33,733 nucleotides of DNA, from assembly GCA_015489595.1 (NCBI GenBank), contig WFZK01000017.1, positions 1 to 33,733 of the forward strand, in the 5' to 3' direction. Numbering within the stretch: the stretch's first letter is position 1; each line of letters opens with the position of its first letter. Origin of the DNA: Candidatus Dojkabacteria bacterium. Lineage in GTDB: Bacteria; Patescibacteriota; Dojkabacteria; GCA-002793355. The notes under the pieces were generated by a model, which had not been told where the DNA came from, searched no databases, and saw only the letters and a program-made list of their open reading frames with translations. Shown here piece by piece: positions 602 through 16,022 of this stretch. The position numbers and the translations under genes were made by a program.

Positions 602-838
602 ACCCTGTGGTTGTCCACTAGGGCGCGCCGAAAGGCGAGGAAAGTCCGGCCTCCTTAAAAAGCGCACAGGGGAAACCCTGGTAGGCGAAAGCTTACGGAT
701 AGAGCCACAGAAACCAGACGGGGTAATACCCGGTGAAACGCCGAAAGGCTATAGGCAATCCCTGCGCGGAGAAAGGCTTCGAGCCGCTAAGATAAATGCC
801 CTAGAAACAGAAGCCGGCTTACAAGACAACCACAGGGT
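602..838 (+). ncRNA. rnpB: RNase P RNA (compact bacterial type)
   Basis: P1 ACCCTGTGGTTGTC/GACAACCACAGGGT; P2 CTAGGGC/GCCCTAG; GAGGAAAGTCCGGC; ACAGAAA; GGTGAAA; AGATAAATG; ACAGAAGCCGGCTTA (P4 strands). Confidence 0.93.
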
Positions 839-2793: not shown

Positions 2794-3756
2794 ATGATAC
2801 CTAGCCTCTTATGGGAAAAAGGTCGACTCCCTCGGGAAATCCGCATAAAAACTTATATCCGCCAAGGGGAACCCCGCTTTAATTTCATAGGGGTGAAAGC
2901 GTCTCCTCAGCTTAAGTCATCCCTAGCAAAAGTCCGCTTTGCCTTACAGAAACTTAAATTTAAACTCCGATTCAAACAATTCTACATAGAATTTATTGGC
3001 GTACCCGATCGAGTCGTTCTTACCTCTCAATACTACTTAAGCCCTATCCTGGCCAGTATAATTTATCGAAATCATCCAGAAACAGAAAACTTCCCTCTAA
3101 CCATAGGTGATATAGAAATAAAACGATCTGCTGCGCTGTGGAACGTCATAGAAGCTGACGAAATAACGACACTTCAATCTATAGCTGAGGTGTTAGGTAT
3201 CCCTAAACTTATGCAACCTAACCAAAGAGTAGATGAAGATAAAGTGGTAGACGTAAAACCTCACCAAGCCCCAAAAAGCCAGATTAAAATCAAAAAACTG
3301 ATCGTCATTGCTACTCTTAGAAAGTGTAATCTGACTAAATTAATCTCATATGATTGTAACCAATTCTACCGTAAATGGGCCATGATACACCGACACTTTC
3401 TGCAGCTAGAAACCGATAGATGCTTCCTTGTGGTTAAAAATTCAGAGATTCCAGATGAAGTTAAAATCCCTATACTTTTTTACCCGGAATACCCCCCACA
3501 ACCTCAACAACTCCCAAATATCACAGAGAGACTTAGAGATCCTCAGGTCTCATTTGTTGCTCTGTTAAAGCCGTGCGCCTGCGGCGCACGGCTTTCTAGC
3601 GAGATCCCGTGTATCTGTTCTTACGGAACCATACGGAAAGCGAGCATGACCATTTTCAAAATAGCCCAAATCGCAAAAGAAATTTACATCCTAAAAAGGC
3701 CGTGCAGATTAGAGAAAACTCCTGTAGATAAACTCCAACAGATACTAACGCTTTGA
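2794..3756 (+). CDS. Degenerate ComM/YifB-like (Mg-chelatase-like) protein lacking recognisable AAA+ motifs
   Basis: N-term GEPRFNFIGVKASPQLKSSLAKVRFALQKLKFKLRFKQFYIEF resembles ComM G.PGFTIVGLPD..VKESRERVRAAI..SGF; DVKPHQAPKSQIKI resembles DVIGQEQAKRALEI; KPCACGARLSSEIPCICSYGTIRK resembles [24 protein letters not shown]. No Walker A GPPGSGKT or Walker B LFLDE. Confidence 0.55.
   Translation: MIPSLLWEKGRLPREIRIKTYIRQGEPRFNFIGVKASPQLKSSLAKVRFALQKLKFKLRFKQFYIEFIGVPDRVVLTSQYYLSPILASIIYRNHPETENFPLTIGDIEIKRSAALWNVIEADEITTLQSIAEVLGIPKLMQPNQRVDEDKVVDVKPHQAPKSQIKIKKLIVIATLRKCNLTKLISYDCNQFYRKWAMIHRHFLQLETDRCFLVVKNSEIPDEVKIPILFYPEYPPQPQQLPNITERLRDPQVSFVALLKPCACGARLSSEIPCICSYGTIRKASMTIFKIAQIAKEIYILKRPCRLEKTPVDKLQQILTL
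3568..3594. repeat. Perfect 12-bp GC-rich hairpin inside the ComM-like coding sequence
   Basis: AAGCCGTGCGCC-TGC-GGCGCACGGCTT. Confidence 0.85.
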
Positions 3757-12427: not shown

Positions 12428-13957
12428 CTATTTCTCCTTTCTGCTCGGCTTGCCCGCCTTTGCTTGTGCCCTAACTTCACGAATCACAACCACCTCAACT
12501 TCGCCCGGAAACACACCTGACTCTTGAATTGCCTTGGCTATATCCCTTGCCAACAGCACAGCTTCTTGATCTGAAACCTGACTTGGCTTTACTATAACTC
12601 TTAGCTCCCTACCGGCCTTAACCGCATATATCTCTTCTGCCTTATCCCCTGCAACCTCTAGCGCCTTCTTCTCTAAACTCTCGACCCTTTCGATGTAGCT
12701 GTCCAGGTTCTCTTTTCTTGCTCCTGGTCTAGCTCCCGAGACCGCATCTGCGATCTTTAAAATCTCGGCAATAATTGATTTAGGCTCCACATCTCCATGA
12801 TGAGCCTCTATAGCATTAATAATAATCTCATCAAGTCCATATTTCCTAGCCAGATCAGCACTAATGAAGTGATGTTGCTTCTTAATCTTTCCTGTAAACA
12901 CCTTACCAATATCGTGTAGTAAAGCCGCAATCTTTAGCTTTTTAATATCCTCTTCCTTAAGCTTAAGCTCTCTAGCTATAAATTCAGCGATCCTCATAAC
13001 CTCCAAAGTATGCTTGTACAGATTTTGGCCTAAGCTTCGTCTAAACTTCATCCTTCCTAAAAGAGGATAAAGCTCTTTAGGTGCATCATACCAGCCTGCT
13101 TCTTCTACCATCTTTCTGCCTGCTTTCTCTAATTCTTCAGCCACTAATTTTTTAGCTCTGGCTACCTGCTCTTCAATTGTCCCCGGATGAACCCTCTTCC
13201 CCTTAAGAAGATTCTCCAAGGCAATTCTAGCTATCTCTCTTCTTACTGGGTCAAAAGATGAAAGACCTATAGTATTCGGAGCCTCATCAATAATTACATC
13301 CACCCCGGTTGCCCTCTCTAGAGCTCTTATATTCCTCCCGTCTTTCCCTATGATTCTACCCTTTACCTTCTCATCAGGGATCTCAACCCTGGTGACAGTA
13401 GCTTCATCTATATAGTCCGTAACGATACTTTGCAAAGTATCAACAATTAACTTCTGAGCGTACTCTTGAACCTGCTGTTCTACCTTCTTCTTTGCCTGAT
13501 TTAAACGCTCAGCTTCAAACTCTCTGACCTCCTGCTCGACCTTGGCAAGAAGCTCCTTCTTAGCCTCCTCTCGAGACAAACCAGAGATCTCTTCAAGCTT
13601 TTCCAATAAAGAAGCTCGGGTACGATCTAGTCTTTTTAGCTTTTCAAACAGCTCTTCTTCCTTGGCTATAAGCTCCTTTTCTCGAGCTTTTAACATCTCC
13701 TCTCGTTCTTTAAGTTGGGCAAGCTGTGCATTGTACTGAGATTTGACTCGTTCATAGAATCTTTTTGCACTCTCGCGAAGCTCTCTGGCTTCTTTCTCTG
13801 CATCTGCAAAATGTTTTTTAGCGATCTGCTCAGCAAGTTCCTGAGCCTTACGTTCTATAGACGTCTCCCTGCTCTTAGAAACTATAAACCTATCATATAA
13901 GCCATAGCCAATAGCTCCTACAGCAAGACCTATTCCTAGTGATAATAGATCAATCAT
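12428..13957 (-). CDS. rny: Ribonuclease Y (ATG at 13957; supplied start is an upstream TTG)
   Basis: N-terminal TM, long coiled coil, KH domain (VKGRIIGKDGRNIRALERATGVDVIIDEAPNTIGLSSFDPVRREIAR), HD domain (ALLHDIGKVF). Confidence 0.95.
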   Translation of the reverse strand: MIDLLSLGIGLAVGAIGYGLYDRFIVSKSRETSIERKAQELAEQIAKKHFADAEKEARELRESAKRFYERVKSQYNAQLAQLKEREEMLKAREKELIAKEEELFEKLKRLDRTRASLLEKLEEISGLSREEAKKELLAKVEQEVREFEAERLNQAKKKVEQQVQEYAQKLIVDTLQSIVTDYIDEATVTRVEIPDEKVKGRIIGKDGRNIRALERATGVDVIIDEAPNTIGLSSFDPVRREIARIALENLLKGKRVHPGTIEEQVARAKKLVAEELEKAGRKMVEEAGWYDAPKELYPLLGRMKFRRSLGQNLYKHTLEVMRIAEFIARELKLKEEDIKKLKIAALLHDIGKVFTGKIKKQHHFISADLARKYGLDEIIINAIEAHHGDVEPKSIIAEILKIADAVSGARPGARKENLDSYIERVESLEKKALEVAGDKAEEIYAVKAGRELRVIVKPSQVSDQEAVLLARDIAKAIQESGVFPGEVEVVVIREVRAQAKAGKPSRKEK

Positions 13958-13983
13958 ATTAGCATACTCCAAATTTAACTACA

Positions 13984-14096
13984 AAAGGAAAGACAGCCTT
14001 TACCACGAAGGTGACGACTCTGCCACCTTTTTCAAATTTTGGCTAAAATACGGATTCATTTTTCTAGCTCTTATTATCTAAGACCGTCTTTCCTTT
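13984..14096 (-). ncRNA. Candidate structured RNA / cis-regulatory 5' leader of rny
   Basis: Minus-strand closing helix AAAGGAAAGACGGTCTT/AAGGCTGTCTTTCCTTT (17 pairs, 2 G-U); inner helices GGTGGC/GTCACC and an A/U-rich GCTA...TAGC hairpin. Confidence 0.6.
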
Positions 14097-14107
14097 AAGC
14101 TGTAAGT

Positions 14108-14113
14108 ATTATA
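14108..14113 (-). promoter_or_regulatory. -10 (TATAAT) for the rny leader transcript
   Basis: TATAAT on the minus strand 11 nt upstream of the 5' strand of the leader helix; weak -35. Confidence 0.5.
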
Positions 14114-14126
14114 CTATATTATTACG

Positions 14127-14753
14127 ATGGAAGTTGTAGGGTTTATAGGCCCACCAGGAGCGGGAAAAGACACGCAAGCAGAAATTCTTGCAACAATGGC
14201 CCAGCATATTAAAGCGATATCTATCGGCGAACTCCTCAGAAAAGAAGCTCATTCAAACTCATATCTAAGAGAACTCATTAAGAAAGGGCTCTTAGTACCC
14301 GATTCGATTATCCTTAAACTGATGAGGCAAGCAGTAAAAATGTACAAGAAAGATTACTCCACGCTTATAATCACAGGAGTGCCGCGAACGGTTACCCAGG
14401 CAGAATGGATATGCAATAGTGACTCATTTAGGCAGGTTATCTTCTTTAGGCTTTCGGAAGAAGAAGCTATCCAACGGCTAACCAATAGACTAGTATGCCC
14501 CACGTGTGGAAAGATATATCACCCTGTTCTTAATCCACCTAAACACGACACCCTATGTGACCTTGATGGCACTCCGCTCGTGCGCAGGGAAGACGACAAG
14601 CCAGGCGCTATAAAACAAAGATTTCATACCTATAAAAGAACCATGCAAGATGTGCTCAGACGGCTTGAAGAATGCACCAAGCTTAAAGAAATAGATGCAG
14701 GCAAAAGCATCCCGGAGGTTACTCAGCAGTTAAAAGTACTCCTTGGGCTCTGA
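14127..14753 (+). CDS. adk: Adenylate kinase family protein
   Basis: GFIGPPGAGKDTQAEILA, TGVPRTVTQAE, RLVCPTCGKIYHPVLNPPK, RREDDKPGAIKQRFHTYKR. Confidence 0.9.
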   Translation: MEVVGFIGPPGAGKDTQAEILATMAQHIKAISIGELLRKEAHSNSYLRELIKKGLLVPDSIILKLMRQAVKMYKKDYSTLIITGVPRTVTQAEWICNSDSFRQVIFFRLSEEEAIQRLTNRLVCPTCGKIYHPVLNPPKHDTLCDLDGTPLVRREDDKPGAIKQRFHTYKRTMQDVLRRLEECTKLKEIDAGKSIPEVTQQLKVLLGL

Positions 14754-16022
14754 AACAGTAGAATATATTGCCTCTACTTGTCTTAAGGTGTCGATAATTA
14801 CTGAAGCAACTATCAAGACCCCAGTACCTGTGACCACTAAAGTCGGTAACTTAAGCGAAACTACAAGAATATTCGGTAAAAGCACTAAAATACCCAAAAG
14901 AAGTGCTCCCCAGAAAACAGTGTAGATTAAGACCTTCTTAAGGTACTCCTCGGTAGCCTTTCCGGGTCTTACCCCACGAACAAATGCTCCTTGCTTGGCT
15001 AGGTTTTCTGCCACCTCCTTGGGTCTAAACACCAAGAAAGCCGAAAATACTGTAAACCCGACGGTTACCACCAACATCAAAAGGTTGTTGACCCAAAAGT
15101 TGTTCATCCAAGTGGAAACCACGCTAGCTATGTGAGCTATGGTAGGCCATCTGTTTTGTTTAGCCAAAAAATTAGCAACCACCACTGGCATTCTAACTAC
15201 AGAGATAGCAAAAATTACAGGCATAACTCCTGCAGGATTAATAGGAACAGGAATAAAGTTTTCCTGGCCAGCGAACCCTGTAGCTCTCACCCTTTGAGCA
15301 TACACTACTGCTATTTTGTATACAGACAGCGCAATGACTATAGCAAGGATCAATATCACTAAAAGCACTAAGATTAGAGTTAGCTTCTGCCAATCATAGA
15401 TTAAAACCCTCCAAGCATAACTTAAACTTGTGGGTATAGAGACTAAAATTCCAGCAAGAATGATAATCGAGGAGCCACCACCTAAACCAGCCTCAGAAAC
15501 TAGCTCTCCTAGCCACATTGTAAAGGTAGCCCCAAATACAAAAATAGAGATTACTGCTGCTACATCCACAGGTCCATTTACTGATAAGATACTTACAGGT
15601 AAACCGAATTGTTTACTAAAGCTAGTCAAACCGAAATAAACCACAAAAGCCTGAATTATGGCTAGAGGTACGGAAAGAAGTCTAGTATACATAGTCAAAG
15701 TTCTACGTTCAATAGGCCCACCAGAGTATAACTCTTTAATTGAAGGGACAACTGCACTTAAGAGCTGAAAGATATAAGAAGCATTAATGTAAGGACCTAA
15801 CCCCACCGTAAGGATACTCAAACTCGCAAAAGCACCGCCTGAGAACATGTTAAATATCTGCAAAATATCACTCTGCTGCACTATCGCCTTAAACACCTGC
15901 AAATTTACGCCAGGTATAGTCACTGCAGAAAGCAGTCGAAAGACCAAAAGAATAAAAAGCGTAAACAAAAGCTTAGATCTAATCTCACGAATTTTTAAAG
16001 CATCTTTAATCTTTCTTAGCAT
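14730..16022 (-). CDS. secY: Preprotein translocase subunit SecY
   Basis: Polytopic; LGLGPYINASYIFQLL, ATGFAGQENFIPVPINPAGVMPVIFA, RPGKATEEYLKKV. Confidence 0.96.
   Translation of the reverse strand: MLRKIKDALKIREIRSKLLFTLFILLVFRLLSAVTIPGVNLQVFKAIVQQSDILQIFNMFSGGAFASLSILTVGLGPYINASYIFQLLSAVVPSIKELYSGGPIERRTLTMYTRLLSVPLAIIQAFVVYFGLTSFSKQFGLPVSILSVNGPVDVAAVISIFVFGATFTMWLGELVSEAGLGGGSSIIILAGILVSIPTSLSYAWRVLIYDWQKLTLILVLLVILILAIVIALSVYKIAVVYAQRVRATGFAGQENFIPVPINPAGVMPVIFAISVVRMPVVVANFLAKQNRWPTIAHIASVVSTWMNNFWVNNLLMLVVTVGFTVFSAFLVFRPKEVAENLAKQGAFVRGVRPGKATEEYLKKVLIYTVFWGALLLGILVLLPNILVVSLKLPTLVVTGTGVLIVASVIIDTLRQVEAIYSTVSEPKEYF

Follow-up and report, generated by a model that had tools for sequence, protein, structure and literature searches.

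The 5' leader of rny in the window (the whole stretch of 33,733 nucleotides that was analysed) looks like an undescribed switch for the amount of RNase Y made. Comparison with related genomes points to a genuine leader that evolves fast, is structured and is probably coding. We propose that it acts as a translation-gated cis-regulator of rny, a reading that we consider evenly poised. As a more tentative extension, translation of a mini-ORF with an unconstrained peptide would open a covarying helix throughout the class, and the level of RNase Y would be set by ribosome activity and by RNase Y itself. A leader of this kind was not found in the literature searched.

The leader RNA and its fold

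Folding of the minus-strand RNA from 14096 to 13984 gave a closing helix of 17 pairs (14096-14080 with 14000-13984) enclosing two hairpins, at exactly the place given by the earlier note, which had read it as a structured 5' leader of rny; both the fold and its position support that reading. The fold energy is -38.5 kcal/mol (z -5.98), a value equalled by 0 of 200 shuffles. Two G-U pairs of the closing helix are possible only in the minus-strand RNA, as had been noted, and the plus strand folds more weakly (-27.8, z -3.80) because these pairs are lost. In the fold of the full leader of the window, AGCU at the RNA 5' end also pairs with AGUU, which lies at one edge of the TTAAATTT box before rny. 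The features of the locus are:

14108..14113, minus strand: TATAAT -10 box, presumed rny promoter (sequence; extended -10 at the matching place in family f5)
14080..14096, minus strand: 5' arm of the closing helix, AAAGGAAAGACGGUCUU (fold, sequence)
14042..14068, minus strand: A/U-rich hairpin 1 (GCUA...UAGC), holding the start codon of the small ORF (fold, sequence)
14000..14059, minus strand: small upstream ORF (uORF), 19 codons plus TAA, MNPYFSQNLKKVAESSPSW (sequence; such an ORF is conserved in rny leaders)
14009..14028, minus strand: hairpin 2, AGGUGGC AGAGUC GUCACCU, within the small ORF (fold; the family f5 equivalent covaries)
13984..14000, minus strand: 3' arm of the closing helix, AAGGCUGUCUUUCCUUU (fold, sequence, helix geometry)
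13969..13978, minus strand: the lineage's ribosome box, TTAAATTTGG, about 20 nt before the rny start codon (sequence; partly pairs with AGCU at the 5' end)
12428..13957, minus strand: rny, RNase Y, 509 aa from the ATG at 13957 (TIGR03319, E 5.3e-134)

The element had been said to belong to no known RNA class, and Rfam 15 indeed gave no family match at the gathering threshold, nor at E<=10 over 13940-14130; the rny leaders of relatives were likewise without a match. The downstream gene aligns over its full length with the TIGR03319 RNase_Y model at 447.5 bits, the curated cut-off of 454.35 lying just above this score. Its mechanical ORF begins at TTG 13972.

Promoter and start signals

The TATAAT reported at 14108-14113 is present on the minus strand. 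Given a -10 box at this place, the RNA would be expected to start near 14101, about 5 nt before the helix. A consensus scan recognised no -35 element upstream of the leader; in relatives of family f5 an extended -10, TGRTATNAT, is conserved at the place matching the TATAAT of the window. There is no intrinsic terminator between the leader helix and rny, and attenuation by such a terminator was rejected on this ground.

A Shine-Dalgarno (SD) sequence and an ATG had been placed just downstream of the helix. The ATG is there, and in place of a usual SD we found the TTAAATTT box, which is common before many genes of the lineage; a reading of the box as an rny-specific signal was dropped for this reason. 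This box, TAA[AGT]TT near -20, serves the lineage as a general start signal: it peaks sharply at -22..-19 before start codons, in 55 of the 352 genes of one relative (G026, L101-L120), where SD-like motifs gave no peak, and it stands at -23..-20 in 10 of the 34 genes of the window. It seems to be a ribosome signal of the class that is not of the SD type; an SD does precede several rny genes in other classes of the phylum. The 3' end of the 16S rRNA in the genome of the window (L100, about 3035-3062) reads GGCGGAATTACCTCCTTA, with CCTCC retained and the usual GGATCA replaced by GGAATTA, an alteration that might be related to the unusual start signal.

On its other side the leader is flanked by adk, divergent from rny. 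In the adk/secY pair (14127-14753, plus strand, and 14730-16022, minus strand) adk is inverted with respect to secY and the 3' ends overlap; the same adk-rny arrangement is found in the sister genus (G004).

Conservation of the closing helix

With a threshold of E<=1e-60, RNase Y was found in 82 of 89 genomes from the class, and the comparison of leaders covered the 74 rny leaders of the class that were readable. In most relatives rny is separated by about 100-350 nt from the gene before it, and the upstream genes differ. The order of the window is represented by eight genomes, among which only the leader of G004 closely resembles that of the window. A nucleotide search of the relatives with the leader returned the window alone and one promoter-like stretch of 26 nt, and a protein scan of the genome contigs led to a single distant locus. 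MAFFT/RNAalifold applied to the whole of family f5 together gave no structure, since the sequences turn over too rapidly; we worked instead with genus-level groups, with tests of arm pairing and with a curated alignment of eight leaders. The genus-level alignments of f5 have a conserved extended -10, closing helix, hairpin and in-frame mini-ORF of 18-28 codons.

For the arm-pairing test, the region -185..-105 was paired with -80..-10 in each leader. The leaders' own arms beat dinucleotide shuffles in family f5 (combined p 1.5e-13), in family f1 (p 0.0012) and in all other families (p 0.0096). Own arms also paired more strongly than arms exchanged between genomes (-23.4 vs -17.3 kcal/mol in f5, -27.6 vs -20.6 kcal/mol in f1), which indicates covariation at the level of the arms. 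A control set of 74 long leaders of other genes from one relative had no arm-pairing excess (p 0.47; own -17.68, swapped -17.69). For the window leader alone, with wide arms, the closing-helix test gave p 0.15 beside its strong own fold. For whole leaders the fold z-scores are no more than moderate, and those of the antisense strand are much the same (mean -1.49 vs -1.22).

In the curated eight-leader alignment, 84% of the cells are paired, falling to at most 53% when the alignment is slid, and its covariation score of 0.242 compares with 0.182 +/- 0.018 for shuffled alignments (1/500); the f5 equivalent of hairpin 2 covaries here too. By eye, the arms AAAGACAGGAUAAUUUA/UAAAUAAUCCUGUCUUU of G004 correspond to AAAGACGGUCUU/AAGGCUGUCUUU of the window and differ from them by one one-sided and two two-sided compensatory changes, the helix being preserved through changes of U-G to G-C and of C-G to A-U. 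The earlier note had staked its proposal on compensatory substitutions in related rny leaders, and they were found in the genus-level alignments of f5, in the arm tests, in the eight-leader alignment and in the comparison with G004. A structure is conserved upstream of rny and maintained by compensatory change, as befits a cis-regulatory leader.

A helix of this length on the mRNA of a ribonuclease recalls the pnp and rnc leaders of E. coli, long leader stems that are processed by RNase III. The 17 continuous pairs and an RNase III encoded in the genome would agree with cleavage of the helix to give a processed form of the rny mRNA, as happens in E. coli. However, the closing helix has 8-15 pairs and is often interrupted in many relatives, and, unlike those of pnp and rnc, it varies in length and is tied to a small ORF, which RNase III processing leaves unexplained; we regard this reading as very unlikely. 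Still less likely is a separate gene for a small RNA or small protein that merely happens to lie before rny. It would account for the promoter box and the compact fold, but no terminator follows the helix, the arrangement accompanies rny throughout the class even as the genes upstream change, and Rfam offers no match. The 6S RNA (RF00013) was rejected as a candidate, with no covariance-model match at rny; only 2 of 56 relatives (G021 and G046; L054, L055) have one, elsewhere.

A small ORF within the leader

A purely non-coding reading of the leader proved incomplete, because a conserved small ORF of 19 codons (14059-14000), which the earlier note had overlooked, lies inside the structure with its stop at the 3' arm. 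Its TAA (14002-14000) shares a base with that arm, namely the first one, the start codon lies in hairpin 1, and hairpin 2 falls inside the coding part. There is no obvious SD before the uORF start, and the lineage's TAA box precedes only 16 of 37 uORFs (background 27%; genes 49%).

A sense frame of 15-45 codons opening with ATG occurs in 52 of the 74 rny leaders, compared with 22 of 74 in antisense and a shuffle expectation of 26.2 +/- 4.0. For family f5 the count is 25 of 28 leaders against 10.0 expected. Control leaders of other genes have such an ORF in 21 of 74 cases in either orientation, and rny leaders exceed them in sense ORFs (Fisher 5.7e-7). Among 20 sister pairs, aligned start and stop were retained by 12 of 21 sense ORFs and by 0 of 3 antisense ORFs. 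When the same substitutions are distributed randomly, the chance that a diverged pair retains its ORF is about 1-4%; the product over pairs, 10^-11.7, overstates the retention because the test was run on kept pairs only. In 28 of 30 leaders no more than 25 nt separate the stop codon from the 3' arm of the closing helix; in the window and in G004 it is at or inside that arm.

The peptides behave differently. In amino-acid similarity they do not clearly exceed the neutral level (combined p 0.10), strong selection on the peptide is not supported, and start and stop persist in sister genomes in which the peptide has largely changed. Conservation of start, frame and stop, the mark of control by a translated uORF, is found among the rny leaders, and with the peptide hardly retained it seems that translation of the mini-ORF, not its product, is under selection. 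The ORF of the window is out of register with that of G004 in the nucleotide alignment, and a short FS.N.K stretch is all that the two peptides have in common; the membership of the window ORF in this group therefore rests on position and architecture.

These results bear on a leader peptide in the narrow sense, in which a specific nascent peptide or codon run would sense a ligand or amino acid, stall the ribosome and reshape the leader. A short ORF does sit in a foldable leader, and C-termini are alike within subgroups of f5, one group reading MK.F...RNLV-stop with an invariant GAATTAATGAAA start and another ...SAVSF.K.V-stop. However, the peptides seem nearly unconstrained and differ between families, the likeness of their C-termini partly overlies a conserved hairpin, and no intrinsic terminator follows the helix. 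We consider such a peptide improbable. The leader resembles translation attenuation of the ermC type in having a short ORF in a foldable leader, where, as proposed here, the position of the ribosome opens a helix and so affects the next start; it differs in that its peptide seems unconstrained and has no known stalling motif or inducer.

A chance origin of the helix and the ORFs is unlikely. Chance alone does produce ORFs in about one in three A/T-rich leaders, but a fortuitous inverted repeat with short ORFs in an A/T-rich intergenic region is opposed by the ORF, sister-pair, arm-pairing, control-leader and covariation controls, and we give it hardly any credence. At 18 rny loci of other classes of the phylum, 7 had such an ORF in sense and 5 in antisense, no clear excess with start codons roughly called; as far as seen, the leader may be restricted to this class.

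A possible link between translation and RNase Y synthesis

In the mechanism that we propose, the RNA would begin a few nucleotides before the closing helix, which would tie the 5' end to the region before the ribosome box of rny. Inside the helix, evolution would have retained the translation of the short ORF and not the sequence of its peptide. Since a ribosome at termination occupies about a dozen nucleotides past the stop, one finishing the mini-ORF would cover the 3' arm and would have to open the closing helix. When closed, the helix would tuck away the 5' end and crowd or partly pair the TTAAATTT box, and output of rny would be low; when open, it would free the box and the A/U-rich interior. 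In this way RNase Y synthesis would be tied to ribosome activity, and negative feedback would come from RNase Y, for which the exposed interior is a natural target. The transcription start, translation of the uORF, the direction of control, the signal and the feedback are inferred parts of this model.

Cleavage by RNase Y is a plausible component. The enzyme of B. subtilis autoregulates by cutting its own mRNA in the 5' UTR, within the first ~50 nt, and in the early ORF, with trimming by RNase J1 (PMC10303841), and both RNase J and RNase III are encoded in the genome of the window (G000). B. subtilis RNase Y is a better precedent than E. coli rne, the analogy drawn in the earlier note. The gene is the same, a 5' UTR controls RNase Y synthesis and output is tied to translation; unlike here, the abstract of that study describes neither a conserved helix nor a small upstream ORF (PMC10303841).

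The 5' UTR of E. coli rne (Rfam rne5) is likewise the structured leader of a main decay endonuclease, autoregulatory there, but it belongs to another enzyme and has another structure, and the leader studied here matches no Rfam family. We know of no upstream ORF in the rne5 element.

Autoregulation, the possibility raised in the earlier note, could also operate with no role for the small ORF, RNase Y cutting A/U-rich single strands beside the hairpins, RNase J degrading the rest and the helix protecting the 5' end. The B. subtilis precedent (PMC10303841), the RNase J gene of G000 and a 5' end within about 5 nt of the 17-pair helix all fit this reading. It leaves unexplained, however, why the small ORF is strand-specific and conserved in frame and why its stop codon lies at the 3' arm, and we judge it unlikely, though less so than the other alternatives.

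To our knowledge, control of the level of the main mRNA-decay enzyme has been described in only a few model bacteria. An RNase Y leader retained through covariation and a frame-conserved mini-ORF in a whole class of small-genome bacteria predicts a link between translation and mRNA-decay capacity; if true, the cell's capacity to translate would be directly coupled to its capacity to degrade mRNA. The rny leader also carries a caution, in that a structured leader RNA may be coding.

Other RNAs of the class

Since 6S RNA was detected in just the two relatives mentioned above, the class may be without it or may possess a form that escapes recognition. The window also carries a class A RNase P RNA at 607-837 (plus strand), which is reduced, with only 231 nt compared with the 367 positions of the model.
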